From assembly GCF_030846775.1 (NCBI RefSeq), contig NZ_CP132910.1:2204001-2268000 (forward strand): a stretch of 64,000 bases of DNA. The letters are read 5' to 3'. The position numbers and the translations under genes were made by a program. This DNA comes from Geothrix sp. 21YS21S-2. GTDB taxonomy: Bacteria > Acidobacteriota > Holophagae > Holophagales > Holophagaceae. The notes below the pieces were generated by a model. That model worked only from the letters and a program-made list of their open reading frames with translations. It was not told the DNA's origin and searched no databases. Below, piece by piece: positions 8,118-61,683 of this stretch (position 1 is its first letter; each line of letters starts with the position of its first letter).

Positions 8118-8172
8118 GCTATGGGATTCGGCTCCTTTGACGGTGGCGCCCGCTTGGCGGCAGGTACGGGTC

Positions 8173-8491
8173 CCTTCACCTCGCCCCGTCCGGGGTCGCC
8201 GGCGAAGGGGGTGCCATCGCAAGGAGTCCGGCCACGGGTGTGGGGGCCATGGCGCCGCCCTGGGACTCCGGCGAAGGGGTGAGCCGGAGGTGGAGGCCTG
8301 GAGGGTGGCCAATGCCTCGGAGCACTCCTGGGAGCCCACCGGGCCCCAGGCCCGGATTGGGAGTCCCCACCAGGAAGTCGCCGGTCACCTTCCCCGGAGT
8401 CGGCGTGTGCCAACGTGGCCCACTCCGCCGGAACGCCTGCTCTCCGTTGGCGCCGGCCTGGCCGGCGACAACGAACGGAGCGAGGTGAAGG
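8173..8491. repeat. Large nested inverted repeat in non-coding region
   Basis: The 417 bases between 8117 and 8535 hold no credible gene. Arms 8173-8203 and 8461-8491 are complementary over 31 positions with 4 mismatches (11 perfect, CCTTCACCTCG/CGAGGTGAAGG, then 16 of 20). Inside, 8264-8287 pairs with 8381-8401, and weaker complementarity links much of the rest, so the whole 320 bases can fold as one imperfect hairpin. This resembles two head-to-head copies of one ~160-base palindromic repeat (REP/BIME- or MITE-like). No transposase or target duplication was seen. Confidence 0.65.
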
Positions 8492-12915: not shown

Positions 12916-13071
12916 GCTGGGTTCCAGTTCCGTCAAGCTCTCCATTTTACATGCGGCGCCACGAATTGCCCACCTTGCGTCGTGAAATCACCGGAGGGTT
13001 GCATTCTTGACCATTGCGCTTGAGTGTTCCCGGACCCTCGGGCAAACTGTTGGATTGTTTATGGAGCATCA

Positions 13072-13491
13072 ATGAGCATCGAGCAGACGTTTGGGATCAT
13101 CAAGGCCAACGCCGTCCAGGACGGCAACATCGGCAGGATCCTGTCCGCCATCGAAAAGGCCGGCTTCACGCTGCGCGGCATGCGCCTCGCCCGCCTCACC
13201 CCCTCCATCTGCAAGGGATTCTACGCCGAGCACGTCAACAAGGGGTTCTATCCCGAGCTCGAGGCCTTCATGACCGAAGGTCCCGTGGTCCTCCTCTGCC
13301 TGGAGGGCGAGAATGCCATTCTCCGCTGGCGCGAGCTCATGGGCGCCACCGATCCCGCCAAGGCCGCCGAGGGCACCCTCCGCAAGCTCTTCGGTGAGAA
13401 CATGGGGCGCAACGCCACCCACGGCTCGGACTCCCCCGCCTCGGCCGCGCGGGAGGTAAGCTATTTCTTCAGCGTCTTCGATCGGGTTTAA
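13072..13491 (+). CDS. ndk: Nucleoside diphosphate kinase
   Basis: 139 residues, the standard length. GGAG lies 5 bases before the ATG at 13072. It transfers gamma-phosphate between nucleoside tri- and diphosphates through a phosphohistidine. The active-site block NATHGSDSPASA contains the catalytic His, and KANAV near the N-terminus supplies the conserved Lys. It is monocistronic, divergent from secA, with a strong terminator directly after the stop. Confidence 0.96.
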   Translation: MSIEQTFGIIKANAVQDGNIGRILSAIEKAGFTLRGMRLARLTPSICKGFYAEHVNKGFYPELEAFMTEGPVVLLCLEGENAILRWRELMGATDPAKAAEGTLRKLFGENMGRNATHGSDSPASAAREVSYFFSVFDRV

Positions 13492-13509
13492 ACATATCAA
13501 CAATAATAA

Positions 13510-13533
13510 AAAGGGGCCTTTTTAGGCCCCTTT
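13510..13533 (+). terminator. Intrinsic terminator after ndk
   Basis: A perfect 10-base stem, AAAGGGGCCT / AGGCCCCTTT, with a TTTT loop starts 19 bases after the ndk stop. It is flanked by an A-run on the left and a T-rich stretch on the right, so it could work in both directions. Confidence 0.85.
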
Positions 13534-13673
13534 GTTGTTCCGGGTGGCGAACCGCGGAAGCTGTTGACGTCCTCCCGGACGCCCAGTACTGTGATGTCGA
13601 ATAGTAAATTAACAACATAAGTCCAGGGTGCCCGAATCCGGCATGTCCCGCCGAAAAATGGAAATAATCCTGT

Positions 13674-15416
13674 ATGTCTAATCTGATCTATGTCTGCAGA
13701 CGGGAGTCCAGCGACCTCGCCGGTGGGGCCCTCCTGGAGCGCGTCGCGGACTGGATCACCCCGCCGCCCATCAAAGGATTCGCCCATCGGATCCGGCAGG
13801 CCCCCGGCGAGGCCGTGTGCCTCACGGGACCGGGGGGCGCCGGAGGCCTCGAGGGGACCTCCGGCCGGGTCGGAGCCTTCGTGGGGGACTGGCCGGAGTG
13901 GCACCGCCCCGGCTCGGCGATCCCGGACGGGTCCTTCGCCCTGGTGCGCTCCGACGGGGGTCTCACCGAACTCTGCTCCGACTACGGCGGCACCCGCACC
14001 CTCTGGTATGCCATCACCGACACCGATTTCTTCGTCTCCACCTCCCAGCGGGCCATCATCTGCCTGCTCCAGGGCCTGAGCCTGAGCCGGCCAGGGTTCG
14101 CCTGGTTCCTGTCCTCGGGGTCCCTCGGCCCTTCGGGAGCCTGGGACACGCGGATACGCCGCCTGCCCCGGGGGGCCCGCCTGACCCTCGACCGGGCCCG
14201 CTGGACCCTGTCCCTGGTCACGACCTCCATCGTCTTCCGCAACCTGCCCATGCGGCGGGAGGAGGCGCTGGAGGGCCTCCGCCACGTCCTGGCCAAGGCC
14301 ATCGGGTCCTGCCAGGGGCTTTCGCCCCAGTGGATCCTCCCCCTGTCGGGAGGCTACGACAGCCGGATGCTGCTCGCCACCCTGTACGGCACGGGTTTGC
14401 GCCCCCGCACCGTGACCTGGGGCCTGGCCGCATCGCGCACCCAGCGGGGGAACGACGCTTTCATTGCCGAGAAGCTCGCCAGGCACTATGGGCTCCGCAA
14501 CGACTACCTCCTCACCGAGCACTCCGTCGCCCCCCCCCCTGTCGTGGTGGACGCCTTCATCGAAGCCCACGGCGGAACCACGGATGCCCTGTTCCCCTAC
14601 CTCGACGGGCTCAGCCTCTGGGCCCGCTTCGCCCTGGAGGGGGTGGACGGGATCATCCGGGGCGACGAAGGGTTCGGAACCATCTCCAGACCAGAACGCC
14701 ACCACAGGTACGCCCAGGACATGATCCTCCTGAGCGAGCTCATCGGGGACGAGGCCGCCGAGGCCGTGGCCGACGGCCGGCAGACGCTTCCCCGGGAGCT
14801 GCGGCGCGAACCCGAGGAAACCGTGCAGACGTACGGCGACCGTCTCATCCACGCCTGTTTCATTCCGATTCACCTTGCCGGCCTTACGGACGTCAAGACC
14901 CCGTTCGTGGATGTCCTCAACCCCATGCTCGCGGGGTCCGTCCTTGAATTCGTCCGGATGATGCCCGACCACCTGAGGGAGGGCCGCAACGTCTACGGGC
15001 AGCTCACCCGGTCCATCGGCCCGCCCATCCCCTTCGCGGTCCTGGCGGCCGACGACAGCCGCAACGGCTTCCTGCAAAGCGACCCCTACAACCTCTGGAT
15101 GGCCGAGGAACTGGCGAGCGAGACCATGGCGCGCCTGCTGCCCCCTCCGTTCAGGGCCGCCATCGCCCAGTCGCTGGTTTCGGAGTCCAGGTCCAAGCCG
15201 ACCCTCAGCCTCGGCCGCGTCCTGCTCAAGCACCTCATCCCGTCCTCCCTGGTCGCGGCCGTCAGGGCCGTGGGACCTCCCCACGTGCCGACCAACCGGG
15301 TCATCGCCTTCCGGATCGCGCTTGCTAGCCGGATCATCCGCCTCCTGGAACGGGATTCGGAACACCTGGCCCGGTTCACCCCCTCGGGGGGCATGCCGGA
15401 ACGGGCGGGGACCTGA
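13674..15416 (+). CDS. Asparagine synthase-like protein without N-terminal catalytic Cys
   Basis: 580 residues. The C-terminal synthetase domain has the ATP-pyrophosphatase loop LSGGYDSRML (PP-loop SGGxDS) around residue 225 and later Asp/Glu-rich metal-binding motifs (GDEGFG). The N-terminal domain resembles a class II glutaminase fold, but position 2 is Ser and no Cys follows Met, so glutamine cannot be hydrolysed in the usual way. Such proteins occur as amide- or lactam-forming enzymes in polysaccharide or peptide loci (lasso cyclases are relatives). No leader peptidase, RRE or precursor gene lies beside it, so its substrate is unknown. It is a lone gene, convergent with the response regulator at 15453. 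Confidence 0.7.
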   Translation: MSNLIYVCRRESSDLAGGALLERVADWITPPPIKGFAHRIRQAPGEAVCLTGPGGAGGLEGTSGRVGAFVGDWPEWHRPGSAIPDGSFALVRSDGGLTELCSDYGGTRTLWYAITDTDFFVSTSQRAIICLLQGLSLSRPGFAWFLSSGSLGPSGAWDTRIRRLPRGARLTLDRARWTLSLVTTSIVFRNLPMRREEALEGLRHVLAKAIGSCQGLSPQWILPLSGGYDSRMLLATLYGTGLRPRTVTWGLAASRTQRGNDAFIAEKLARHYGLRNDYLLTEHSVAPPPVVVDAFIEAHGGTTDALFPYLDGLSLWARFALEGVDGIIRGDEGFGTISRPERHHRYAQDMILLSELIGDEAAEAVADGRQTLPRELRREPEETVQTYGDRLIHACFIPIHLAGLTDVKTPFVDVLNPMLAGSVLEFVRMMPDHLREGRNVYGQLTRSIGPPIPFAVLAADDSRNGFLQSDPYNLWMAEELASETMARLLPPPFRAAIAQSLVSESRSKPTLSLGRVLLKHLIPSSLVAAVRAVGPPHVPTNRVIAFRIALASRIIRLLERDSEHLARFTPSGGMPERAGT

Positions 15417-34743: not shown

Positions 34744-35157
34744 ATGAGCAAGCAGCGCGGCCTTGGAAGCCTGGCGGACCTCGCCAAGATCCTGGAAGAA
34801 GCCTCTGATCCTGGTTCCGATCATCGGGAGGACAAGAGGGAGTTGAAACCCAAACCCACCGCCACGCGGAAGGGGGGCGGAGTCAAGCAGGTCCGCGCCC
34901 TGGACCCGAAGCGGAAGCTCTGGTACGAAAAGCGCCTCCGGGAGCAGGCCGAAGCGGCCACGGAGAACGCCGCCGAGAGCCCCAAGGGACCCGAGCGCGT
35001 GCACACCCCCGGCATCACCCGGGCGGCCGCCACGCGGGTGGGGGGCAGCCTCCTGGAGAGCCTGGCCAACGCCGCCAAGGACGCCAAGGCCAAGAACGAG
35101 GGCGGGAAGAACCGCGCCGAAGCCTGGCGACGCAAGCCGGGCGATCCGATCTTCTAG
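34744..35157 (+). CDS. Hypothetical charged low-complexity protein
   Basis: 137 residues, rich in Lys, Arg, Glu and Ala, without signal peptide or membrane segment. I recognise no domain. A perfect palindrome GTGTCGACAC (34734-34743) sits directly before the ATG and no good Shine-Dalgarno is visible. The stop overlaps a possible small gene, suggesting both are translated together. Cytosolic and perhaps nucleic-acid binding by composition only. Confidence 0.6.
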   Translation: MSKQRGLGSLADLAKILEEASDPGSDHREDKRELKPKPTATRKGGGVKQVRALDPKRKLWYEKRLREQAEAATENAAESPKGPERVHTPGITRAAATRVGGSLLESLANAAKDAKAKNEGGKNRAEAWRRKPGDPIF

Positions 35158-37513: not shown

Positions 37514-37572
37514 AACCAAGTCTAATTCATGCGGACCTTGGTTCTACGGACCGAAATGCACCTCGCCGGACT

Positions 37573-37588
37573 GTCGCTTTTGAGCGAC
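37573..37588. promoter_or_regulatory. Dyad upstream of toxin-antitoxin operon
   Basis: GTCGCT-TTTG-AGCGAC is a perfect 6-base inverted repeat that ends just before a TATAGT hexamer (37589-37594), a possible -10 box. The position fits an autoregulatory operator for the HigA-type antitoxin. This rests on position and symmetry alone. Confidence 0.35.
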
Positions 37589-37597
37589 TATAGTCCC

Positions 37598-37888
37598 ATG
37601 AGCGAAGTCCGCAAAACGCTCCAGTTTCAGAAGTGGCTTGATAACTTAAAGGATTCCCAGGCTTACGCCCGCATCAAGACTCGGCTCTTCCGTCTCGCTA
37701 TTGGCCTTGCAGGGGATGCCAAGCCGGTGGGGCATGGCGTTTCCGAGCTGCGAATCGATTATGGCCCCGGTTACCGGGTGAATTTCACAAGACAAGGAGA
37801 CACCCTGATCCTAATCCTTGCCGGTGGAGACAAGAGCACCCAGGCCAAGGACATCCGAAATGCCATCAAGTTGGCCAATGCCCTGTGA
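37598..37888 (+). CDS. Type II toxin, RelE/ParE (HigB-like, HI1419 family)
   Basis: 96 residues. Typical features are a TLQFQKWLDNLKD start, ARIKTRLFRLAIGLAGDAKPVGHGVSELRIDYGPGYRVNF and the end KDIRNAIKLA. The family is the 'addiction module killer' group, probably ribosome-dependent mRNA interferases. The basic residues of ELRIDYGPGYRV correspond to the catalytic region. The toxin precedes the antitoxin, the HigBA order; its stop overlaps an in-frame GTG of the antitoxin. Confidence 0.88.
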   Translation: MSEVRKTLQFQKWLDNLKDSQAYARIKTRLFRLAIGLAGDAKPVGHGVSELRIDYGPGYRVNFTRQGDTLILILAGGDKSTQAKDIRNAIKLANAL

Positions 37889-37899
37889 AGGTGTCCCCA

Positions 37900-38232
37900 A
37901 TGGAATCCCCCAAACCCATGACCTCACGAACCCCCCGAGTGGCGCGCCCGGGAAAAACGGTCACCACGCCCTACGACCCCGCCTCCAACCTGGTTTCACC
38001 GGAACGCATGGCCGCGCTCCTCGAGGCCGCCCTCGAGGACGGGCACCCCCGGGTCATCGCCGCCGCGCTCGGGGCGATCGCCCGCGCCCAGGGAATGGCA
38101 AGGATCGCCAAGGTCACCGGGCTGAATGAAAAATCCCTCTACCGGGCCCTTTCGGGGGAAGGGAATCCTGAACTCGAGACGTTCATCAAGGTTGTGAGGG
38201 CCCTGGGGCTCCACCTCCACGCCTCCGCCTAG
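37900..38232 (+). CDS. Antitoxin, HigA-like XRE protein (HI1420 family)
   Basis: 110 residues from ATG 37900, which has AAGGTG 6 bases upstream; a GTG at 37885 is an alternative. The N-terminus (YDPASNL) and helix-turn-helix (ALGAIARAQGMARIAKVTGLNEKSLYRALS, then GNPELETFIKVVRALGL) are diagnostic of the antidote protein paired with this toxin class. It likely represses its own operon. It converges with the HisF-like gene, three bases apart. Confidence 0.88.
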   Translation: MESPKPMTSRTPRVARPGKTVTTPYDPASNLVSPERMAALLEAALEDGHPRVIAAALGAIARAQGMARIAKVTGLNEKSLYRALSGEGNPELETFIKVVRALGLHLHASA

Positions 38233-38235
38233 GAT

Positions 38236-38871
38236 CTACCGCCTCAGGGGAATCCCCGCAGGTTCCAGCCGTTCCTTGAACGCCCCCGCGGTCATCAGCG
38301 CCGCGGGATAGGCGATGCCATCCGCCCCGTGTGCCAGGGCCTCCACGGCCAGGGCGGGGTCGGAGCAGGCGAGCAGGATGGGGGTCGGCAGGTGGGCGGC
38401 CCGGGCGCAGAGATCGGCCAGGTGGCGGTCGCCGGCCTTGAGGAGGATCTCCCCTGCCCCGCCCAGGTTGCGCAGGTCCTCCAGGGCCGCGTCCCAGCCG
38501 CCGGACCAGGCGGCCTCCAGGGAGGCGGTGATCCGGGCGCGGCCGAAGCGGGCGGCGTCCAGGGCGTCCAGGTCCCGGGCCGGGAGCACCACGCGGTCGG
38601 CGCCGTCCTCCAGGGCCTCCTGGAGCTCGGCGGGGTCCTGGAAGGGGGCCTCCAGGGCGAAGGGGAGGAAGAGGGCACGGGCCACGTCCAGCATCCAGGC
38701 CTGGCGCAGGCGCCTTCCCCGGCCCAGTTCCACGAACAGGAGGCCGTCGGCGCCCTCCAGTTCCAGGCGGCGGGCCCAGTCGATGGGGGCGCCCAGGTCG
38801 GCGGCGTCGGCGGGGTCCACCACGCGGCCTTCCAGGACGTGGAGCACCGGGACCAGACGTTTGGCATCCAT
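38236..38871 (-). CDS. HisF-like TIM barrel protein lacking catalytic aspartates
   Basis: 211 residues. It aligns from residue 1 with the true HisF of this window (58934-59689): MDAKRLVPVLHVLEGRVVD against [19 protein letters not shown]. The general acid/base Asp11 of HisF is His11 here, the position of Asp130 lies in ITASLEA with no Asp, and the phosphate-binding GGGIRT is EAPFQD. It is 40 residues shorter. It probably binds a small phosphosugar-like ligand or only its partner, not the IGP-synthase substrate. GAGGT, overlapping the stop of the HisH-like gene, serves as ribosome site. Confidence 0.65.
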   Translation of the reverse strand: MDAKRLVPVLHVLEGRVVDPADAADLGAPIDWARRLELEGADGLLFVELGRGRRLRQAWMLDVARALFLPFALEAPFQDPAELQEALEDGADRVVLPARDLDALDAARFGRARITASLEAAWSGGWDAALEDLRNLGGAGEILLKAGDRHLADLCARAAHLPTPILLACSDPALAVEALAHGADGIAYPAALMTAGAFKERLEPAGIPLRR

Positions 38872-38880
38872 TTTCGGACC

Positions 38881-39504
38881 TCAGTTGCCGGCGCGGGCGG
38901 CGGGGAATTCGCCCAGGCCGGCCAGGATCCTTTCCAGGAAGGCCAGGCCGAAGGCGCCGGACTTCTCGGGATGGGCCTGGAGGCCCAGGGTCTGGCCGCG
39001 CATCTCCAGCACGGAGAAGGGACGGCCGTGGACGGCGGTGTGCAGGGTGCGGCTGCCGGGCTCCAGGGCATGGGCGTGCTTGAAGTAGAGCCAGGCCCCC
39101 TTGGCCTCGGGGATGACGGGGTGGGGGCTGTGCCGGGTGATGACCGTCCAGCCGTCGTGGGGGAGCTTCACCCCGGGGCCCAGGCTCCGCACGATGCCGG
39201 GGATCAGCCCCAGGCCGGTGCCCCGGGGGGATTCCTCGCTCCCTTCGGCCAGCAGGTGGAGGCCCAGGCCGATGCCCAGAACCGGGCGGCCGGCGGCGGC
39301 CAGCTGAGGCAGTTCGTACCACCAGCCGCTCGCCTTCAGGGCGGCGCAGGCGGGGTCGAAGGGGCCGGAGCCCAGGATCACCAGAGGGCCGGCCGAAGCG
39401 GCTGAACCGGGGTCCGGGGCCCGCCGGTGTTCGAAGCCCAGGTGGTCCAGGGCCCCTTCCAGGGTGTGCAGGCTTGCGGCGCCCGGGCCGATGAGGGTGA
39501 TCAC
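38881..39504 (-). CDS. HisH-like glutamine amidotransferase homologue with Cys to Gly at the active site
   Basis: 207 residues, GTG start overlapping the HAD stop (GTGA). The class I amidotransferase fold is evident: LVILGSGPFDPA, RPVLGIGLGLHLLAEGSEE and AHPEKSGAFG. True HisH (59680-60264) has C79 in LLGICLGMQLL; here the same residue number is Gly79 (codon GGC). The other two triad residues, His178 and Glu180, remain. Glutaminase activity should be absent. It lies directly between the HAD protein and the HisF-like protein, mimicking the HisH-HisF pair of the real operon. Confidence 0.7.
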   Translation of the reverse strand: MITLIGPGAASLHTLEGALDHLGFEHRRAPDPGSAASAGPLVILGSGPFDPACAALKASGWWYELPQLAAAGRPVLGIGLGLHLLAEGSEESPRGTGLGLIPGIVRSLGPGVKLPHDGWTVITRHSPHPVIPEAKGAWLYFKHAHALEPGSRTLHTAVHGRPFSVLEMRGQTLGLQAHPEKSGAFGLAFLERILAGLGEFPAARAGN

Positions 39505-40748
39505 GGCCGGGAGCCCAGGGTGCGCAGGAGGTCCTTGAGGCGGGGGGCCTGGAGGTCCTCCTCCCCGGCGACCCACTGGCGGTCCGGGCCCACGGCGGCG
39601 AACACCCAGTCCACGCCGGGGCACAGGGCCCGGGCGCCGCGCAGCGCCGAGGCGTCGTCGCAGGTGTCGCCCACGAAGACCACCCGGGTGCTCCGGAAGG
39701 CGTCGGCCAGCTGGATGAGGCCTTCGGCCCTGGGCTTGCGCAGGTGGGGTGCGCTGTCGGACACGGCGGGGATGCGGAAGCCCAGCACCTGGAAGGCGAG
39801 GGTGAGCTCGTCCGGGGGGCGCCCGGTGAAGATGGCCAGGTCCCCGGGGAAGGCGTCCAGGTCCTCCCGGCTGACCATGGGGCGCTCCATGCGCCGGGTC
39901 CTGGCATAGTGCTTCTGCACCACGTCCTGGCAGCGGGGCTCGAGTTCCCGGATGCGGGGCTCCAGGTGGGGGAAGCCCTTGCCGGTGGCGTGCCGGAGAT
40001 CGTCCAGGCCGCCGATCTCGGCCAGGGCCAGGGCCCCGGCGGTGAGCCGGAAGTCGTTGTTGAAGCCCCCCACCCGCTTGAAGGCGGCGAAGTGCTCGTC
40101 ATCCCACACCAGGGCCGGGGCCAGCTCGGCCAGGGCGGCGGATACGGCCTCCACGAAGGAACGGCCCGGATCGATGAGGACGCCGTCCACGTCCAGGGCC
40201 AGGAGCTGGCGCTCCCGGGTGGCGGTGGCGAAGGTCGCGGGCAGGCTGCCGCCGGCCGCAGCGCCCAGGCTCGCGAGCACCTCGGGCCGGCCCAGGGCGC
40301 AAGCCCCGTATGGGCCCTCCCGGAGGAGCAGCACGATGCCGTGCCGGTCCACCGCCAGGCGCTGGGTGCGCACCAGGCCGGGCGCGTCGTCCCGCAGGAG
40401 CACCGCCAGGGGGGGGTGGGGCCGGGTTGCGGCGAAGGCCAGGAAGGCGTCCAGGGTGAGCAGGTCCATGGTGTCCAGGGCCGGGGTGCGGTCCAGGTTC
40501 AACCAGATCTGTTCCTGGGGACCGCACTCGGCGGCGGCGTCCATGAGGGTGTTCAGCACCTCCCGCCCTTCCAGCCAGAGGGAGCGGCACTCGGCGCCGG
40601 CGGCCCGGATCCGGTCCTCCCACGCGGGCCGCAGGGATTCCGCCACCCAGACCCGCTTCGGGGCCCGGCCCCGCAGCAGGGCCTCCAGCAGGGCATCGAT
40701 GGACGTTCCCGCCAGGGCTCCGCCCGGCGGGGCGCCGAGCACCGCCAT
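39501..40748 (-). CDS. HAD hydrolase with aminotransferase-like N-terminal region (TIGR01548-like)
   Basis: 415 residues from ATG 40748 (GGAGAG upstream; GTG at 40787 is an alternative). The C-terminal half (from about 182) is a HAD phosphatase: LALDVDGVLID with D186/D188, then KRVGGFNNDFRLT, FTGRPPDEL and VFVGDTCDDASA. The NND and FTGRP patterns resemble the TIGR01548 group, whose members are found fused to histidinol-phosphate aminotransferase-like domains. Residues 1-180 are unassigned, but a segment (LLREGPYGACALGRPEVLASL) resembles the end of an aminotransferase active-site region without a clear PLP Lys. It begins a three-gene run with the two His-protein homologues. Confidence 0.65.
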   Translation of the reverse strand: MAVLGAPPGGALAGTSIDALLEALLRGRAPKRVWVAESLRPAWEDRIRAAGAECRSLWLEGREVLNTLMDAAAECGPQEQIWLNLDRTPALDTMDLLTLDAFLAFAATRPHPPLAVLLRDDAPGLVRTQRLAVDRHGIVLLLREGPYGACALGRPEVLASLGAAAGGSLPATFATATRERQLLALDVDGVLIDPGRSFVEAVSAALAELAPALVWDDEHFAAFKRVGGFNNDFRLTAGALALAEIGGLDDLRHATGKGFPHLEPRIRELEPRCQDVVQKHYARTRRMERPMVSREDLDAFPGDLAIFTGRPPDELTLAFQVLGFRIPAVSDSAPHLRKPRAEGLIQLADAFRSTRVVFVGDTCDDASALRGARALCPGVDWVFAAVGPDRQWVAGEEDLQAPRLKDLLRTLGSRP

Positions 40749-40830: not shown

Positions 40831-41751
40831 TCAGGCGGGGATGGCGTGGGCGGCGGGAAGGCCCTGGGCAAAAAGCTTCCTGGGCCTGACGCCGGCCTCG
40901 GAATCCGCCCAGGTCCAGGCGGTGGGATCGGCGAGGATGGCCTTGGCCAGCGCCACGTGGACGGCGTGGCCGGCGCAGTGGGCCTCCACGAAGCCTTCCA
41001 GGGGGGCGCCCAGGAGGGCCAGGTCGCCCACCAGGTCCATCATCTTGTGGCGGACGGCCTCGTCCTCGAAACGCAGGGACTCGTTGAGGGGGCCGTTGGC
41101 TCCGAAAACCACCGCATTGTCCAGACTGCCGCCCTTGGCGAGCCCCCGCGAACGCATGAAGTTGATGTCGCTCTCCAGGCAGAAGGTGCGGGCCAGCCCC
41201 AGCTCGCGGACGTACTTCTCCGTGGTTAGGGTCAGCTCGCGGCTCTGGCGCCCGATGTAGGGGTTGTCGTAGACGATGGTGTAGGCCAGCCGCAGTCCGT
41301 TCCAGGGGGACACGCGCATCCACTTGTCGCCCATGCGCACTTCCACGGGCTTGAGGATCCGCAGGGTGCGGGGCCAGATGGCCATGGGGCGGATGCCGGC
41401 CTCGAGGATCAGGCGGACCCAGGGCTCGGAGGAGCCGTCCAGGATGGGGAGCTCCTCGCCGTCCACCTCGATGGTGACGTGGTCGATGCCCAGGCCCATG
41501 AGGGCCGAGAGGAGGTGCTCGACGGTCTGGAGGCGGACGCCGTCCCGGGTCAGGGAGGTGGCCAGGCTGCAGTCGCCCACGAACTCGGCGAGCGCGGGGA
41601 TCTCCACGCCCGTGGGGGTGTGGACGAAGGTGATGCCGGAGGCCCGTTCCGCAGGCCGGAGCACCACGGTGCAGGGGAGGTCGCCGTGGAGCCCCCGGCC
41701 CGACAGTGTCGCGGCCTGGCGGAGCGTCTGGGCGTGGCGGTTCCGGTGCAT
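40831..41751 (-). CDS. lpxC: UDP-3-O-acyl-N-acetylglucosamine deacetylase
   Basis: 306 residues, normal length. It is the zinc-dependent, committed step of lipid A synthesis. Zinc ligands are seen as QTVEHLLSAL (His), and RHKMMDLVGDLAL (His and Asp); AGHAVH near the C-terminus carries the catalytic His. GxxP-type loop residues (LDGSSEPW) are present. It is downstream of ispD on the same strand. Confidence 0.96.
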   Translation of the reverse strand: MHRNRHAQTLRQAATLSGRGLHGDLPCTVVLRPAERASGITFVHTPTGVEIPALAEFVGDCSLATSLTRDGVRLQTVEHLLSALMGLGIDHVTIEVDGEELPILDGSSEPWVRLILEAGIRPMAIWPRTLRILKPVEVRMGDKWMRVSPWNGLRLAYTIVYDNPYIGRQSRELTLTTEKYVRELGLARTFCLESDINFMRSRGLAKGGSLDNAVVFGANGPLNESLRFEDEAVRHKMMDLVGDLALLGAPLEGFVEAHCAGHAVHVALAKAILADPTAWTWADSEAGVRPRKLFAQGLPAAHAIPA

Positions 41752-41805: not shown

Positions 41806-42543
41806 CTAAAGGCCTTGATTCGCTACGGGACCGCCCCGACTGTGGGCCGATCCACCACACCCTGTGGTTCCTGGATGCCAGCGGTCCCAATCCTCCGGGG
41901 TGGTCAGCTTGAGGTTCGTGGGGGGCGACGGGATGAGCTTCACGCGCAGGCCCTTGGCCTCCAGCAGGGAGACGTCGTCGGTGGCGGCGAACCCCTGGTC
42001 CGCGGCCCACCGGAAGGCGTCCAACCAAAGGGACAGCCGTGCGACCTGGGGCGTCTGAGCCCGGAAGATGCCCTCCCGGGGTTCCGTGCCGAGGATCCGG
42101 CCCTGGGCGTCCACCCGCTTGAGGGTATCCGTCGAAGGTTCGCCCAGCACCGCGCCATCCCAAGCCTCCAGGGCGGCCAGGGCCTCCTGGACGGGAAAGG
42201 CGGGCGGAAACGGGCGCACGGCATCGTGGATGAGAACGGGGGCCGAGGGGACGTCGGGAAGGGCGGCCAGGGCCAGGGCCACGGACGCCTGCCGGGTCGC
42301 GCCCCCCACCACGGTCCAGTGGGGAAGGCCGAAGCGCCAGGCCCGCACCTCGTCCAGGCGATCCTCGGGCACGGCCAGGGCGATGCCCGCCAGGTCCGGC
42401 ATGCCGGGGGCGAGGAAGGCCCGCACCGTGGCCTCGAGAAGGGTGACACCGCCCCAGTCCCGGAACTGCTTGGGCGTTCCGCCGCCCATGCGCACGCCCC
42501 GCCCGCCGGCGGGGATCACCAGGAAAGGCCGGTCAATTCTCAC
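41806..42543 (-). CDS. ispD: 2-C-methyl-D-erythritol 4-phosphate cytidylyltransferase
   Basis: 245 residues, GTG start at 42543, overlapping the rlpA 3' end by 11 bases. It transfers CMP to MEP in the non-mevalonate isoprenoid pathway. Motifs: PAGGRGVRMGGGTPKQF, GGATRQASV, HDAVRPF, TDDVSLLE and PTNLKLTTPEDW. A non-conserved Gly/Ser-rich tail of about 20 residues follows the usual end. No ispF is adjacent. No clear Shine-Dalgarno, so coupled translation with rlpA is likely. Confidence 0.94.
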   Translation of the reverse strand: MRIDRPFLVIPAGGRGVRMGGGTPKQFRDWGGVTLLEATVRAFLAPGMPDLAGIALAVPEDRLDEVRAWRFGLPHWTVVGGATRQASVALALAALPDVPSAPVLIHDAVRPFPPAFPVQEALAALEAWDGAVLGEPSTDTLKRVDAQGRILGTEPREGIFRAQTPQVARLSLWLDAFRWAADQGFAATDDVSLLEAKGLRVKLIPSPPTNLKLTTPEDWDRWHPGTTGCGGSAHSRGGPVANQGL

Positions 42544-43390
42544 GCGTTATGAAGGGCTCGAGGCCCCGGTCCCGGAACAGCTTGGAGATGAGGTCCGAGG
42601 CCTTCTGGGCCTCGTCCTGGGTGGCGTAGCTGCCCACCCGCACCCGCTTGACGGTCACACCGCCCTGGGTCCGGGCCTCCACGAGGTTCACGGGGCCCAC
42701 GGCCGACTGCAGCTCCTTGGAGATGCGGGCGATGTTGGCGGGGTCGGAGAGGGCGGCCACCTGGACCGTGTAGGCGTCGCCCAGCAGGGTGGCGGGATCG
42801 ATGGGGGCCGGCTTGCCCTTGGTGTCCACGGAGGTGATGCGGACCCGGGAGGTGCCGCGGCCGTGCATGCCCAGTTCCTTGGCGGCCCGCTCCGACACGT
42901 CCAGCATGCGTCCCCGGATGAAGGGACCGCGGTCGTTCACCCGCAGCACGGCGCGCTTGCCGGTGTCCAGGTTCCGCACCTCGATCTTCGCGCCGAAGGG
43001 CAGCGTGCGGTGGGCGCAGGTGAGCTCGCGGGGGTCGAAGGTCTCGCCGTTGGCGGTGGCCCGGCCGGCGAAGCCGTCGTCGCCGCCGTACCAGCTGGCT
43101 TCGCCGGTCTCAGTGTAGACCTTGGCGTCCGCATGATCGCTAGGCTCCTCGGCCGCCGGGACGTCCGGGAAGGACGCGACGGGGGTGGCCTGGGGCCGGG
43201 TGCAGTGCAGGGAGAAGAGGAGGACCACCACCACGGCCGTATAGCGGCTCAGGGACCGGGCCTTCCGGAGGAGGTTCACCTGGAGGCCGAAGGGCGCCGT
43301 GACGACGGGGTGGCAGACCACCTGGATGTCTTCGATCCAGATGCTGAAATGCCTGCTCCAGTTCTGAGTGCACAGCGCATTGAAGTCCAT
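42533..43390 (-). CDS. rlpA: RlpA-like septal ring lytic transglycosylase with SPOR domain
   Basis: 285 residues. The start at 43390 has GGAG 4 bases upstream. A ~45-residue N-terminal extension precedes a hydrophobic segment ending in LFSLHC, possibly a lipoprotein-type Cys; a start nearer this segment cannot be excluded. The double-psi beta-barrel is clear (GEASWYGGDDGFAGRATANGE, RTLPFGAKIEV, VNDRGPF, LDVSERAAKELGM), and a SPOR domain at the C-terminus (YTVQVAAL ... KRVRVGSYATQDEA) binds denuded peptidoglycan. It acts in cell-wall processing in the periplasm. Confidence 0.88.
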   Translation of the reverse strand: MDFNALCTQNWSRHFSIWIEDIQVVCHPVVTAPFGLQVNLLRKARSLSRYTAVVVVLLFSLHCTRPQATPVASFPDVPAAEEPSDHADAKVYTETGEASWYGGDDGFAGRATANGETFDPRELTCAHRTLPFGAKIEVRNLDTGKRAVLRVNDRGPFIRGRMLDVSERAAKELGMHGRGTSRVRITSVDTKGKPAPIDPATLLGDAYTVQVAALSDPANIARISKELQSAVGPVNLVEARTQGGVTVKRVRVGSYATQDEAQKASDLISKLFRDRGLEPFITREN

Positions 43391-43434
43391 GGTTCTCCGG
43401 AAAGATCTTTGGGCGGTTTTCGTCCCAAGGTTCC

Positions 43435-43462
43435 ATATTAACCATTTCCTTGCATTTGTAAA
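43435..43462 (-). promoter_or_regulatory. Probable promoter of rlpA-ispD-lpxC run
   Basis: On the minus strand TTTACA (43462-43457), a 16-base spacer and TAATAT (43440-43435) form a good sigma-70-type promoter, with an expected start near 43428, giving a 5' leader of about 38 bases. Confidence 0.5.
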
Positions 43463-43499
43463 TTGACATCCAGCCAAGCGGTGTATCAAATTTACAAAT
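43454..43499. promoter_or_regulatory. 11-bp inverted repeat over rlpA promoter region
   Basis: ATTTGTAAATT (43454-43464) and AATTTACAAAT (43489-43499) are perfect complements with a 24-base spacer in an unusually AT-rich patch. The left arm overlaps the -35 box of the rlpA promoter. Two operator half-sites about three helical turns apart are plausible. Confidence 0.4.
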
Positions 43500-56436: not shown

Positions 56437-57678
56437 CTACCCCCTCATTCTCGCCGAGACCGCATGCGCCGCCAAGCCTTCCGCCCGGGCCAGGGCCGCG
56501 GCCTGGGCGGCCAGGGGGGCCCGGCCTTCCGGGAGCGTCCGCTGCCAGGTGAGGATCTTCAGGAAGGTGGCCACCGAGACCCCGCCCGTGAACCGCGCGG
56601 CGCCCGAGGTGGGCAGGATGTGGTTGGTGCCGCTTCCGTAGTCCCCGAAAACCTCCGCGGCGTCCTCGCCCACGAAGAGGCTGCCGTAGCTGCGGAAGCG
56701 GCCTTCCAGGGCCTCGGCCCTGGCGCCCTGGAGCTCCAGGTGCTCGGGTGCGAGGGCGTCGGCCAGGGCCACGGCCTCGGCGTCGCCGGCCAGCACCACG
56801 GCGAAGCCGTTGCGCAGGCTGTCCCGGGCTGGGGAGTCCGGAGGCAGGGCCGCCAGCTGGGTCTTCAGCTCTCCGTTCACCTGGGGGATCAGGGCGGGGT
56901 CGAAGACGGCCAGGAGAGGCCTGGCGTCGGGGTCGTGCTCGGCCTGGGCCAGGAGGTCGGCGGCGATCCAGGCGGGGCGGGCCCCCGGGGAGGCGATGAC
57001 GAGCAGTTCGCTGGGACCCGCGGGGAAGTCGATGCCCACGTCGCCGTACAGCAGCCGCTTGGCGCCGGTGACAAAGCGGTTGCCGGGGCCCACCACCAGG
57101 TCGGCCCGGGGGACCCCCGCCAGGCCCCAGGCCACGGCGGCCATGCCGTGCACGCCGCCCAGGTCGAAGACCCGGTCCGCGCCGGCCAGCGCCGCCGCCG
57201 CGAGGGTGACGGGGTGGAGGCGGGGGCTGAGGACGATGACCTCCTCGACGCCCGCCACCCGCGCGGGGACGACGCCCATGAGCACGGAGCTGGGCAGCGG
57301 GTAGCGCCCTCCGGGCGCGTAGCACGCGGCGCGGCGCACCGGGAGGACCCGCTGGCCCAGCACCATGCCGTCCACCTCGGTGCTGAAGTCCCGGAAGGTC
57401 TCCTTCTGGGCCCTGGCGAACACCTCCACGCGGCGGATGGCCTCCACCAGGTGGCCGCGCAGTTCGGGGTGGAGCTTGTCCGGGGCCTCCCTGACCTTGA
57501 CGGGGTCCACCTCGAAGGGGCCGCCCTTGAAGCCGTCCAGCTTGCGGGCCCAGCCGAACACGGCCTCGTTGCCGCGCTTGCGGATGTCGTCGAGGATGGT
57601 CCCCACCTCGGGGGGGACCGGCGGGAACACGGTCCCCGCCTGGTCCATGGCCTTGGCGAAGGAGAGGGTCTTCAGCAT
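56437..57678 (-). CDS. hisD: Histidinol dehydrogenase
   Basis: 413 residues. It catalyses the last two steps of histidine synthesis (histidinol to histidine, NAD, Zn). Motifs: YAPGGRYPLPSSVLM, GPGNRFVTGAKRLLYGDVGIDFPAGPSELLVIA, DLLAQAEHDPDA, APEHLEL and GSGTNHILPTSGAARF. The start ATG overlaps the stop of the hisAIE gene by 7 bases. It is the last gene of the operon. Confidence 0.97.
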   Translation of the reverse strand: MLKTLSFAKAMDQAGTVFPPVPPEVGTILDDIRKRGNEAVFGWARKLDGFKGGPFEVDPVKVREAPDKLHPELRGHLVEAIRRVEVFARAQKETFRDFSTEVDGMVLGQRVLPVRRAACYAPGGRYPLPSSVLMGVVPARVAGVEEVIVLSPRLHPVTLAAAALAGADRVFDLGGVHGMAAVAWGLAGVPRADLVVGPGNRFVTGAKRLLYGDVGIDFPAGPSELLVIASPGARPAWIAADLLAQAEHDPDARPLLAVFDPALIPQVNGELKTQLAALPPDSPARDSLRNGFAVVLAGDAEAVALADALAPEHLELQGARAEALEGRFRSYGSLFVGEDAAEVFGDYGSGTNHILPTSGAARFTGGVSVATFLKILTWQRTLPEGRAPLAAQAAALARAEGLAAHAVSARMRG

Positions 57679-58940
57679 GCGGGAGCTCCTTTGGCGTTGC
57701 CGGGCTTGCGGGTGTCGGTGGTGGCGCGGCGCTCCAGTTCGCGGAGCACCTGCTCCATGCGCACCCCTCCCTGGGTGAGGCGGACCATGAGAAAGTAGAG
57801 CAGGTCTGCCCCCTCCCACACCAGATCGTCCTGGGTGGCGGCCCCGGCCACTTCGGCGGCCTCCTCCAGGAGCTTGGCGCCCAGGAGGCCCTCCTCCCGG
57901 AAGAGGCGCGCCGTGTAGCTGCCCGGCGCCGCGCTCTCCAGGCGGGAGCGCAGGGTGGCTTCGAGATCGTCCAGGGCGAACTCGGACCGGCCGAAGCAGG
58001 TGCCGGCCCCGGTGTGGCAGGTGGGCCCGTCCTGGCGCACCACGAAGCGCAGGGTGTCCCGGTCGCAGTCGGCCTCCACGCGCAGGAGCTCCTGGCCGTG
58101 GCCGCTCCGCTCCCCTTTCTCCCAGCGTTCCTGGCGGGAGCGGGACCAGTAGACGCCCCTGCCCTTTTCCAGGGCCTCCTTCAGGCACGCCGGGTTCTCG
58201 TACGCCACCATGCGCAGCCTCCCGGCCTCGTCCATGACGGCCGCGGGGATCAGGCCGCCCTGCTTGTCCCAGTCCAGGCAGGCCAGGAAGGCCTCGGCGG
58301 GGTCCAGGAGGCCCTTGTAGAGGGCCATGCCCACCTGGGCGTCCAGGCCCAGGCGATCGAGGGCGGCCACGTCCTCCACCGTCGTGACGCCGCCGGCGTA
58401 GACGATGGGCAGCTTCGTGGCGGCCCGGGCGGCCCGGGCGGCCTCCCAGTCCAGGCCCTCGAGGCGGCCCTCCTTGTCCACCACGGTCATGAGGAAGCCC
58501 CCGCAGAAGGGATCCAGGCGCCGCAGGCGGTCCAGGGGCGCCTCGGCCTCGTCCTCCATCCAGCCCCTGGACTGGAGCTTTCCGGCCCGCTGGTCCACGG
58601 CCACCAGGGTGCGCTCGCGGGGGAGCCTGCGCAGCAGCTCCTCGGAGGCGGCGGTGCCCAGGATGATGGAGGCCGCGCCCGCACGCAGCAGCTCATGGGC
58701 GCGCTCCGCGGTGCGCACGCCGCCGCCCACGCGGCAGCGGGCCACGCCGCAGAGCTCTTTCACCAGGGCCAGGTTGTCGCCCCTGCCCATGGCGGCGTCC
58801 AGGTCGATGACGGCCAGGTCGCCGTAGACCCGCCAGCGCCGGGCCAGGCCCAGGACGTCCTCCACCTCCAGGACCTTGGTGCGGCCCCCCACCAGCTGCA
58901 CGGCCTTGCCGTCCATGAGATCGATGCTGGGGATCAGCAT
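57672..58940 (-). CDS. hisAIE: HisA-HisI-HisE trifunctional fusion
   Basis: 422 residues covering three enzymes. Residues 1-225 are HisA ([17 protein letters not shown] with the first Asp, GGGVRTAERA, VAVDQRAGKLQSRGW, YAGGVTTVEDVAAL). Residues 226-330 are HisI, phosphoribosyl-AMP cyclohydrolase (YWSRSRQERWEKGERSGH, ADCDRDT, CHTGAGTCF). Residues 335-422 are HisE, phosphoribosyl-ATP pyrophosphatase (FREEGLLGAKLLEEAAEVAG, EGADLLYFLMV). HisIE fusions are common, but a HisA joined in front of HisIE is unusual. The start overlaps hisF by 7 bases and hisD overlaps its end. Confidence 0.95.
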   Translation of the reverse strand: MLIPSIDLMDGKAVQLVGGRTKVLEVEDVLGLARRWRVYGDLAVIDLDAAMGRGDNLALVKELCGVARCRVGGGVRTAERAHELLRAGAASIILGTAASEELLRRLPRERTLVAVDQRAGKLQSRGWMEDEAEAPLDRLRRLDPFCGGFLMTVVDKEGRLEGLDWEAARAARAATKLPIVYAGGVTTVEDVAALDRLGLDAQVGMALYKGLLDPAEAFLACLDWDKQGGLIPAAVMDEAGRLRMVAYENPACLKEALEKGRGVYWSRSRQERWEKGERSGHGQELLRVEADCDRDTLRFVVRQDGPTCHTGAGTCFGRSEFALDDLEATLRSRLESAAPGSYTARLFREEGLLGAKLLEEAAEVAGAATQDDLVWEGADLLYFLMVRLTQGGVRMEQVLRELERRATTDTRKPGNAKGAPAC

Positions 58941-59689
58941 GGGCGCACCTCCACGCCCCGCTGGGCGAGCTGTTCCTTGAGCCGGCGCACCGTGAGGCCG
59001 CCGGTGTGGAAGATGCCGGCCGCGAGCACGGCGTCGGCGCCCGCCCCGAAGGCCTCCACGGCGTGGTCCGCCTCCCCGAAGCCGCCGCTGGCGATCAGGG
59101 GGATCCTCAGGCCGCGCGAGGCGCGGCGCAGCACGTCCAGGTCGTAGCCCGACCCCGTGCCGTCCCGGTCCATGGAGGTGAGCAGGACTTCGCCCGCGCC
59201 CCGGTCCTGGGCCTCGGCCAGCCACGCGCCCATGGTGAGCTGGGTCAGCGTCCGCCCCGCGTCCACGGCCACCAGGATCCCGTAGGCCGGGCGCCGCACG
59301 TCCACGGCGAGGACCACGCACTGGCTGCCGAAGCGGGTGGCCAGCTCCGTGATGAGCTCCGGGCGGCGCACGGCGGCGGTGTTGATGGCCACCTTGTCGC
59401 AGCCGGCCATGAGCAGGGCCTCGGCGTCGGCCACGGTGCGGATGCCGCCGCCCACGGTGAAGGGGATGAACACTTCGCGGGCGACGGCCGCCACCATCCT
59501 CACCGCGGTGTCCCGCTTCTCGATGCCCGCGGTGATGTCCAGGAACACCAGTTCGTCGGCGCCCTCGGCGTCGTAGCGCGCCGCCAGCTCCACGGGGTCG
59601 CCGCTGTCCTTCAGGTTCTGGAACTGGACGCCCTTGACGACCCGGCCGTTCTTCACGTCCAGGCAGGGGATGATCCGCTTCATGACCAT
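58934..59689 (-). CDS. hisF: Imidazole glycerol phosphate synthase subunit HisF
   Basis: 251 residues. Catalytic D11 ([12 protein letters not shown]) and D130 (AVDVRR) are both present, as are [16 protein letters not shown] and [11 protein letters not shown]. With HisH it makes IGP and AICAR from PRFAR and ammonia. The ATG at 59689 has GGAGG 7 bases upstream; a second ATG at 59683 overlaps the hisH stop. Confidence 0.97.
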
Positions 59690-60264
59690 GCGAGGGCCTC
59701 CTTGAGCAGGTTCAGCCCGTAGGTGCCGCTCTTCTCGGGGTGGAACTGGAACCCGGCCAGGCTCCCGCTGCGGAAGCCGGCGAGGAAGGGCCGGCCGTAG
59801 CGGGCCGTGGCCACGGCCGCCTCGCGGCCGTCCGGGAAGGCCGGCACGAAGTACGAGTGCACGAAGTAGGCCGCGCCCGAGAGGTCCCCGAAGTCCACCG
59901 CGCTCCAGCCCATGTGGGGCACCTTGAGGGACGGGTCCAGGAAGAGCTCGCTGCGGCCCGGCAGGAGCCCCAGGCCGGGCGTGTCCGGAGCCTCCTCCGA
60001 GCCCTCGAACAGGAGCTGCATGCCCAGGCAGATGCCCAGCAGGGGCCGGTCCAGGGCCGCCCGCTCCTTCAGGGCGTCCCCCAGGCCCCGCCGGGCCAGT
60101 TCGGCGCCGGCGTGGCCGAAGTTCCCCACGCCGGGGAGGATGAGCCGGTCCATGCCCAGGACGTCCTCCCGGGCCGAGACCCGCCGGGATTCCAGGCCCA
60201 GGAACTCCAGGGCGTTCTCCAGGCTCCGGAGGTTCCCGCAGCCGTAGTCGACGATGCCGATCAA
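59680..60264 (-). CDS. hisH: Imidazole glycerol phosphate synthase subunit HisH
   Basis: 194 residues, TTG start overlapping the hisB stop (TTGA). It supplies ammonia from glutamine. Catalytic C79 is in LLGICLGMQLLFEGSEE and the His/Glu pair in FQFHPEKSGTYG; LPGVGNFGHA carries the oxyanion loop. It is the intact counterpart of the Gly79 homologue at 38881. Confidence 0.96.
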   Translation of the reverse strand: MIGIVDYGCGNLRSLENALEFLGLESRRVSAREDVLGMDRLILPGVGNFGHAGAELARRGLGDALKERAALDRPLLGICLGMQLLFEGSEEAPDTPGLGLLPGRSELFLDPSLKVPHMGWSAVDFGDLSGAAYFVHSYFVPAFPDGREAAVATARYGRPFLAGFRSGSLAGFQFHPEKSGTYGLNLLKEALAWS

Positions 60265-60821
60265 CGGAGCACCCCCTTGGTGGAGCGCAGGCCGTCGGCT
60301 TCGGCCATGGCCTCCCGCAGGGCGAACCCCACGCCCTTGAAGGCGGCCTCGGCCATGTGGTGGGCGTTCTCCCCGGTGACCTTCAGGTGGAGGGTGAACC
60401 GGCCCTCCAGGGCCAGGGTCCGGAAGAAGTGCACGATGTTCTCGGTGGCGAGGCCCCCCAGCGTCTCCGACGGGAAGGGGATGTCGATCACCGGGTAGGG
60501 CCGGCCGCCGATGTCCAGGGCCACCGTGGCCAGGGTCTCGTCCATGGGCAGCAGGCGCTGGCCGTAGCGGGCCCGTCCCTCCCGGCCGCCCAGAGCCTGG
60601 TCCAGGGCGCGGCCCAGGGCGATGGCCACGTCCTCGGCCAGGTGGTGGCCGTCGCCCAGGGGCATGAGGTCCACGGCCTCGAGTTCGAGGCCCAGCCCGC
60701 CGTAGAGGTTGAGCTGGTCCAGGAAGTGGGTGAGCATGGGCACCGAGGTGGCCACGGCGCCTCCGGCCCCCAGGGTCAGGGCGACCCGGGTCTCCTTGGT
60801 GATGCGTTCGAATCTGGTCAT
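60261..60821 (-). CDS. hisB: Imidazoleglycerol-phosphate dehydratase
   Basis: 186 residues, monofunctional IGPD without the phosphatase part. Mn-binding His/Glu motifs DGHHLAED and NAHHMAEAAFK are present, with PMDET between. The usual FLDHML is MLTHFL here: the metal His stays but the preceding Asp is Thr, which is unusual. The hisG stop is 22 bases upstream. Confidence 0.93.
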   Translation of the reverse strand: MTRFERITKETRVALTLGAGGAVATSVPMLTHFLDQLNLYGGLGLELEAVDLMPLGDGHHLAEDVAIALGRALDQALGGREGRARYGQRLLPMDETLATVALDIGGRPYPVIDIPFPSETLGGLATENIVHFFRTLALEGRFTLHLKVTGENAHHMAEAAFKGVGFALREAMAEADGLRSTKGVLR

Positions 60822-60843
60822 GACCTGCCTCCCGGGAAATCGT

Positions 60844-61683
60844 TCACGACACCACCTTGCTGAAGGAGAACTCCAGGATGTCCGTGGCCCCCGCCGCCTT
60901 GAGAAGGGGGATGAGGCGGCGCACCTCCTTGGCGGGCACGGCCGACTTCACGGCGAACCCGCCCTCCCCGGCCAGGGGCATGACGGTGGGCATGCGCATG
61001 CAGGGCAGCATCCCCAGGACGGCGTCCAGGTTGGAGGCGGCCACGTTCATCTCCAGCATCACCCGCTTGCGGGCGTCGAGCACGGAGTTGAGGAGGAGGA
61101 CGAACTCGTCCACCTCGGCGCGCCTGCCCAGGCGGGGGTTGGCGATGAGCCGGGTGGAGGAGGTGAGCAGGGTGTCCACGATCTCCAGGTCGTTCTCCAC
61201 CAGGGTCCGGCCCGTTGCGGTGTTGTCCACGATCATGTCGGCGTCCTCGGGCGGGAACACCTCGGTGGCGCCGTGGCTGCGCACGAAGAGGTAGTCGTAG
61301 CCCTCCTTGTCCAGCCAGGTGCGCGTGATGGTCTCGTACTCGCTGGCCACCACGATGCGCCGGCTCCGGAGGGAGGCCACGCCCGTGCGGGGGGCGGCGG
61401 CCACCAGGCGGACCTTGTCCAGCCCCGTGTCCAGGAGGTCGTCCACCTCGGCGCCCAGTTCCACCACCCAGTCGTGGCCCGCAAAGGCCAGGTCGTGCCG
61501 GCCCAGCTCCACCATGCGGACGATGTCCTGGGGCTTGAGCAGCTTGAGCTGGAAGCGGGGGTCGGCGCAGGCGGGCCGGTAGTTGCGGCCGTTGGCCAGC
61601 ACCTTGAACCCGGCGTCCTCCATGAGGCGGAGGACCCCCTCGGCCATGCGCCCCTTGGGAATCGCCAGATTGATCGTGTCCAT
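60844..61683 (-). CDS. hisG: ATP phosphoribosyltransferase, long form
   Basis: 279 residues. First enzyme of the pathway. It has NLAIPKGRM at the N-terminus, the PRPP loop around IVDNTATGRTLVENDL, and a C-terminal ACT-like regulatory domain (about 205-279, RKRVMLEMNVAASNLDAVLGMLPCM), so it is the feedback-inhibited long type needing no HisZ. First gene of the operon, controlled by the leader and attenuator upstream. Confidence 0.95.
   Translation of the reverse strand: MDTINLAIPKGRMAEGVLRLMEDAGFKVLANGRNYRPACADPRFQLKLLKPQDIVRMVELGRHDLAFAGHDWVVELGAEVDDLLDTGLDKVRLVAAAPRTGVASLRSRRIVVASEYETITRTWLDKEGYDYLFVRSHGATEVFPPEDADMIVDNTATGRTLVENDLEIVDTLLTSSTRLIANPRLGRRAEVDEFVLLLNSVLDARKRVMLEMNVAASNLDAVLGMLPCMRMPTVMPLAGEGGFAVKSAVPAKEVRRLIPLLKAAGATDILEFSFSKVVS

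Follow-up and report, generated by a model that had tools for sequence, protein, structure and literature searches.

The locus lies within a 64,000-nucleotide stretch of the Geothrix sp. 21YS21S-2 genome (hereafter the window; the genome is G000) and consists of three consecutive minus-strand genes running from 40748 to 38236. The first (39501..40748) encodes a 415-aa protein in which a HAD phosphatase domain follows a truncated hisC remnant, as recognized by profile match, motifs, alignment and maximum-likelihood (ML) omega. The second (38881..39504) encodes a disarmed glutaminase subunit of 207 aa, characterized by alignment, omega and a HisH tree, and the third (38236..38871) a disarmed HisF of 211 aa, characterized by alignment, AlphaFold, Foldseek and omega. 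These HisH-like and HisF-like proteins are referred to below as HisH* and HisF*. A preliminary description, made from the window's letters alone, had pictured a tightly coupled trio with intact hisH and hisF some 20 kb away, and the sequence agrees on both counts. The stop of the HAD gene and the start of hisH* share a GTGA, a 4-base overlap common to the five pair-keeping species; hisH* and hisF* are separated by 9 bases in the window; and the live pair sits at 58934-60264, within a minus-strand operon (56437..61683; gene calls and profile matches) of hisG, hisB, hisH, hisF, a hisA.hisI.hisE fusion and hisD. Upstream, the locus is anchored through synteny by lpxC (40831-41751), ispD (41806-42543) and rlpA (42533-43489), all on the minus strand, and downstream by g34744 (34744..35157, plus strand). 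The hisF* stop lies 3 bases from the end of a toxin-antitoxin pair (RelE-like toxin, HTH antitoxin) on the opposite strand (37529-38232). Relatives in the same genus are denoted G073, G074, G075, G076 and G077; related MAG records are Holophagaceae UBA692, UBA706 and bog_363.

The glutaminase signature of HisH* has been rewritten. As first noticed in the window, its motif reads GIGLGLHLL, with Gly79, where the live HisH of the same window has GICLGMQLL, with Cys79. In T. maritima numbering, the window protein carries C84G, Q88H, Y143H and a PGVG to LGSG change. The catalytic Cys84 is absent from every HisH* (Gly in four species, Asn in one), and the oxyanion strand PGVG is replaced by an LGSG/MGTG type in all five. 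Q88H and Y143H are likewise present in 5/5 dead proteins and in 0/17 live HisH, while Cys and Gln occupy the two motif positions in 34/34 relative loci outside the dead cluster (other genera, the second operon of G077 and one unclassified Acidobacteria MAG, with some genomes counted twice). Other residues were spared: H178 and E180 of the HisH triad persist in all five, as do H141 and E96, and W123 and K181 are retained. A published model of the HisH active site contains Gln88, Tyr143, His141, Cys84, His178, Glu96 and Glu180 (PMC10729027). By alignment, then, the former glutaminase pocket now holds four histidines and two glutamates, and could be a putative metal or ligand site, in a protein whose predicted structure is of low confidence (pLDDT 47). 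HisH* matches TIGR01855 at 3.4e-29, its 102.1 bits falling just below the curated cut-off of 105.4.

HisF* has lost its active site as well. Its N-terminus, MDAKRLVPVLHVL, has His11 in place of Asp, and Glu119 aligns at the second catalytic position, where none of the dead orthologs has Asp; both substitutions had been read correctly from the window. Across the five species, Asp11 has become H/H/L/H/Q and Asp130 E/E/K/G/N. Also gone are Lys19, the strand 3 GGG, Asn103, Gly177, Gly203, the strand 8 phosphate loop and loop 1; about 40 residues are absent relative to HisF, and neither phosphate site (G82 and N103; the G177, G203 and S225 region) is conserved. The match to TIGR00735 (8.3e-10) is below its curated cut-off. 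The fold is nevertheless predicted to be a (beta-alpha)8 barrel (AlphaFold pLDDT 86.9, pTM 0.87), and Foldseek aligns it with T. maritima HisF (6rtz) at a TM of 0.83. On whether Gly79 and His11 travel together with the HAD gene, a question raised at the outset, the comparison shows an active-site loss that the five species share along with that gene; the exact residues vary, and G073 has the HAD gene without the pair.

The HAD protein is itself a composite. Residues ~1-175 are a hisC remnant devoid of the PLP-lysine region and of the C-terminal domain; the TFSKALASAGWR segment of the HisC.HAD fusion, which spans the region of the PLP-binding Lys, is replaced or deleted. Residues ~180-415 form a HAD domain with intact DVDGVL, FTGRP, LRKPR and GDTCDDA motifs, and these catalytic motifs are intact in 6/6 genomes of the genus examined. 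The domain matches TIGR01548 at 3.7e-13, scoring 49.5 against a cut-off of 140.2 and so below it. The early surmise that it resembles TIGR01548 and that all three genes descend from his genes proved sound, the N-terminal domain being a dead histidinol-phosphate aminotransferase remnant. Within the class, the HAD domain occurs in 72/93 genomes and, outside the window's genus, mostly forms the C-terminal part of a HisC.HAD fusion of ~600 aa, about half of it. A parallel case is provided by genus g4 (L046, G059, ~7312-8193), in which most of the aminotransferase domain of HisC.HAD has disappeared independently, the rest of the his operon is intact and a stand-alone hisC lies elsewhere in G059, showing that the HAD half persists once the HisC half is redundant.

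Comparison with other Holophagaceae genera accounts for the arrangement. In several of them, the same site carries rlpA-ispD-lpxC-hisD-hisC.HAD-hisB-hisH-hisA-hisF-hisIE-hisG, with normal catalytic residues. The upstream anchors are syntenic with loci L036-L040, L042, L047 and L054; the ancestral order followed by g34744 is seen in L042 and L054 and mostly in L047, and the position of g34744 past hisG in L047 and L054 marks it as the downstream anchor. In the window's genus the same flanks enclose only truncated hisC.HAD, hisH* and hisF* as remaining his genes. Judged by its flanks and gene content, the locus is a stripped ancestral Holophagaceae his operon site, and the order HAD, HisH*, HisF* is a remainder because hisB and hisA were deleted. 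In the HisH tree, the five dead sequences form one clade (100/100) nested in the ancestral Holophagaceae type (100/99), which does not include the live HisH of the window. The trio had been placed outside the his operon in the preliminary description, a setting that has to be reversed: it occupies the old his site, stripped, and it is the live operon that is of a newcomer type.

The newcomer operon is common to G073-G075 and, at least in part (hisG), to G076, and as such is absent from G077 and the other Holophagaceae tested. Its HisA.I.E fusion (57672-58940, minus strand) has its closest relative seen outside the genus and Holophagaceae in another acidobacterial family, at 60% identity; similar full-length matches occur in about 20/396 genomes of the phylum. 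In G000, hisG and hisB are 24 bases apart (60821-60844), the place where hisC sits in G073-G075; the hisC of G000 is instead unlinked (G000:C1:2686133-2687203), and of the copies tested only those of G077 and G059 are closely related to it. The newcomer operon encodes a 279-aa HisG, and no HisZ was seen adjoining it. HisZ was seen before hisG in L041, where an operon of the ancestral type includes a HisZ-like protein and a short HisG (12935-14544).

G077 departs from its congeners. Its dead cluster adjoins lpxC as in the rest of the genus, but on another contig it has a complete operon of the ancestral type, beside the only purD found in the genome. The dead cluster therefore does not depend on the newcomer operon, since G077 has an ancestral-type operon in its stead. 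Contamination of this assembly was considered and rejected, as lpxC, ispD and rlpA on contig C190 are close to those of the genus, and purD on C87 is 75-79% identical to that of four genus members versus 68-71% for other genera (72% to the partial G076 copy). A tree constrained to unite the dead cluster with the C87 operon was not rejected (AU p = 0.33), and the G077 operon would be either a duplicate or a re-acquired copy.

The provenance of the HAD domain bears on its activity. Because it is fused to HisC and sits in a his operon, it probably served the ancestral operon as histidinol phosphatase, and the substrate of the dead-cluster protein is most likely still histidinol phosphate or a similar ester. 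The newcomer operon, hisG-C-B-H-F-A.IE-D, has no recognized phosphatase gene, and a search of G000 for a PHP-type HolPase found none. G000 also encodes a GmhB/HisB-N-like phosphatase and a HisN-like protein; the HisN-like enzyme was entertained as a replacement HolPase and rejected, the same protein being present in 11/11 genomes tested and hence no newcomer. The dead-cluster HAD may be the pathway enzyme in five species or may have a separate job of its own. Histidinol phosphatase need alone does not explain the retention of the dead cluster in G077, because an intact HisC.HAD is also present there in the second operon. A literature search found no paper on the function of TIGR01548.

By the preliminary description, relatives in sister genomes with normal Cys and Asp would have marked the locus as a decaying or misread copy. 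The outcome is split: other genera do have the normal residues, but none of the genus's pair-keeping species does. Under a codon model applied to four species, ML omega was 0.10 for both HisH* and the aminotransferase remnant, 0.13 for HisF* and 0.08 for the HAD domain, compared with 0.04 for LpxC, 0.08 for IspD, 0.10 for live HisH and 0.04 for live HisF (omega profiled on a grid at a few fixed kappa values). Neutrality, omega = 1, was rejected in every case (2dlnL >= 174). HisF* thus evolves about three times faster than live HisF relative to silent change. Pairwise NG86 estimates of dN/dS come out higher (for the pair, mostly 0.2-0.6) owing to biased silent sites in this GC-rich genome, and the codon-model likelihood was used instead. 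Differences between species in the pair are all in frame and introduce no stops. The pair is under purifying selection and is not decaying, and it very probably retains some function.

What has been retained points to the old partnership. On the N-face of HisF, which looks toward HisH, 16/33 live-conserved positions are kept in all five HisF*, versus 4/54 on the catalytic face (Fisher p = 3e-5; we assigned the faces from known secondary structure). HisH-facing residues retained in HisF* are R5, D45, P76, D98, E167, D219 and R249. This retention may in part reflect barrel stability; however, barrel folding alone is insufficient to explain R5, D45, P76, E167 and D219, because the HisA paralogues differ at these positions. 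In live enzymes, HisF R249 and HisH W123 interact at the interface (PMC12828452), and an interface role has been described for the anchors hW123-fR249 and hK181 (PMC12828452, PMC9052757). All of these anchors are retained in the disarmed pair, whereas the HisH interface residues N12, N15, H53 and M121 are changed in HisH*. On this pattern of residues, HisH* and HisF* probably still form a heterodimer.

The explanation we favor, at a probability of roughly one in two, is that the pair persists as a pseudo-IGP-synthase: a conserved heterodimer that works with the HAD phosphatase, either as its non-catalytic partner or as a module for ligand binding. Histidine synthesis passed to another operon, and the ancestral site lost hisD, hisB, hisA, hisIE and hisG. 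The fused HisC.HAD shed its aminotransferase half, retaining the phosphatase; HisH and HisF were both disarmed, and their genes stayed on as translationally coupled neighbors of the phosphatase, with selection still acting on all three. Joined through the old interface, HisH* and HisF* would accompany the HAD enzyme as a partner without catalysis of its own, regulatory or scaffolding in nature; its His-rich pocket, once that of the glutaminase, possibly senses a metal or small ligand. That the pair acts on the HAD enzyme at all, as the 4-base overlap in 5/5 species would suggest, is a tentative proposition, a little short of even odds, and the HAD enzyme is not strictly dependent on it, because in G073 the pair is gone while the HAD gene persists. 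The fullest form of the idea seems rather unlikely: a whole amidotransferase, both subunits included, would have turned into a heterodimeric pseudoenzyme that is conserved and that, equipped with a new His-rich pocket, controls a phosphatase of the same operon. The suggestion of a repurposed heterodimer, made before any comparison, fares well in its core, as purifying selection suits "repurposed" better than "decaying copy". Of the roles then offered, a ligand sensor, if for PRFAR, and an ammonia-independent enzyme, if HisF-like, are unlikely because both phosphate sites are lost in HisF*.

The same evidence can be read otherwise. The pair could be a relic in slow decay, with only the HAD mattering as histidinol phosphatase for the new operon and HisH* and HisF* being dying leftovers. 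The loss of the pair in G073, the divergence of HisF* and its 40 missing residues, and the lack of a recognized phosphatase gene in the new operon or of a PHP-type HolPase found in G000 all fit this reading. Omega values of 0.10 and 0.13 with neutrality rejected, in-frame differences without stops, novel fixed residues (Q88H, Y143H) common to the species and retention of the pair since before the G077 split argue against it and render it decidedly improbable.

Alternatively, HisH* may have been retooled, its pocket turned into a metal or ligand site (His 83, 143, 145 and 178; Glu 91 and 180); the result would be a sensor or an enzyme of new function, and HisF* its structural partner. This would give meaning to Q88H and Y143H, which are fixed in all five species and absent from the 17 live HisH, and to the retained H141, H178, E180 and E96, all of them within the published active-site model (PMC10729027). 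Yet the new histidines could instead fill the space of the lost Cys, and with a predicted structure at pLDDT 47 and a hypothetical ligand, we regard this as improbable. Finally, the pair might be a regulator or decoy of live IGP synthase, tuning flux through mixed dimers with live HisF or HisH, given the preserved interface anchors and the presence of live HisH and HisF in the same cell. Such a role is very unlikely: the live partner differs among the pair-keeping species, since G000, G074 and G075 have a new-type IGP synthase and G077 an ancestral-type one, and several HisH contact residues are changed.

Set beside known systems, the pair is closest to IGP synthase HisH-HisF (TIGR01855, TIGR00735), with which it shares ancestry, fold (TM 0.83 to 6rtz), the HisH-then-HisF order and interface anchors, but it lacks the catalytic Cys and Asp, the oxyanion PGVG and the HisF phosphate sites and scores below both curated cut-offs. 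Its HAD neighbor resembles the TIGR01548 HAD-type hydrolase, fused to hisC in Holophagaceae, in motifs and his operon origin, and differs in that the aminotransferase part is reduced to ~175 dead residues. HisZ, the HisRS-like regulatory subunit of short HisG, is a former enzyme kept as a non-catalytic subunit in histidine synthesis, as the pair would be; unlike the pair, it has another fold and a known partner, whereas the HAD partner proposed here is only putative. In trypanosomes, the AdoMetDC prozyme is a catalytically dead relative retained as a partner that activates its own paralogue (PMC6221367), whereas the window has two dead subunits of one enzyme adjoining a phosphatase. No paper on a conserved dead HisH-HisF was found in the literature.

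IGP synthase is a standard model for how two active sites communicate allosterically across a protein interface. A natural variant with both active sites gone, and with fold and interface residues preserved by selection, would make it possible to test what the interface alone does. It would also show an operon swap turning enzyme subunits into non-catalytic partners and, if the pseudoenzyme reading is true, the conversion of a metabolic enzyme complex to regulatory use. The locus is also relevant to the identity of the phosphatase that completes the histidine pathway in Holophagaceae, the HAD domain fused to HisC being the candidate. A third HisA/HisF-like protein is encoded elsewhere in the genome (L003 1444-2205; G000:C1:3383412-3384053), downstream of an RNase III-like gene, and a similar extra copy is present in Holophagaceae relatives.
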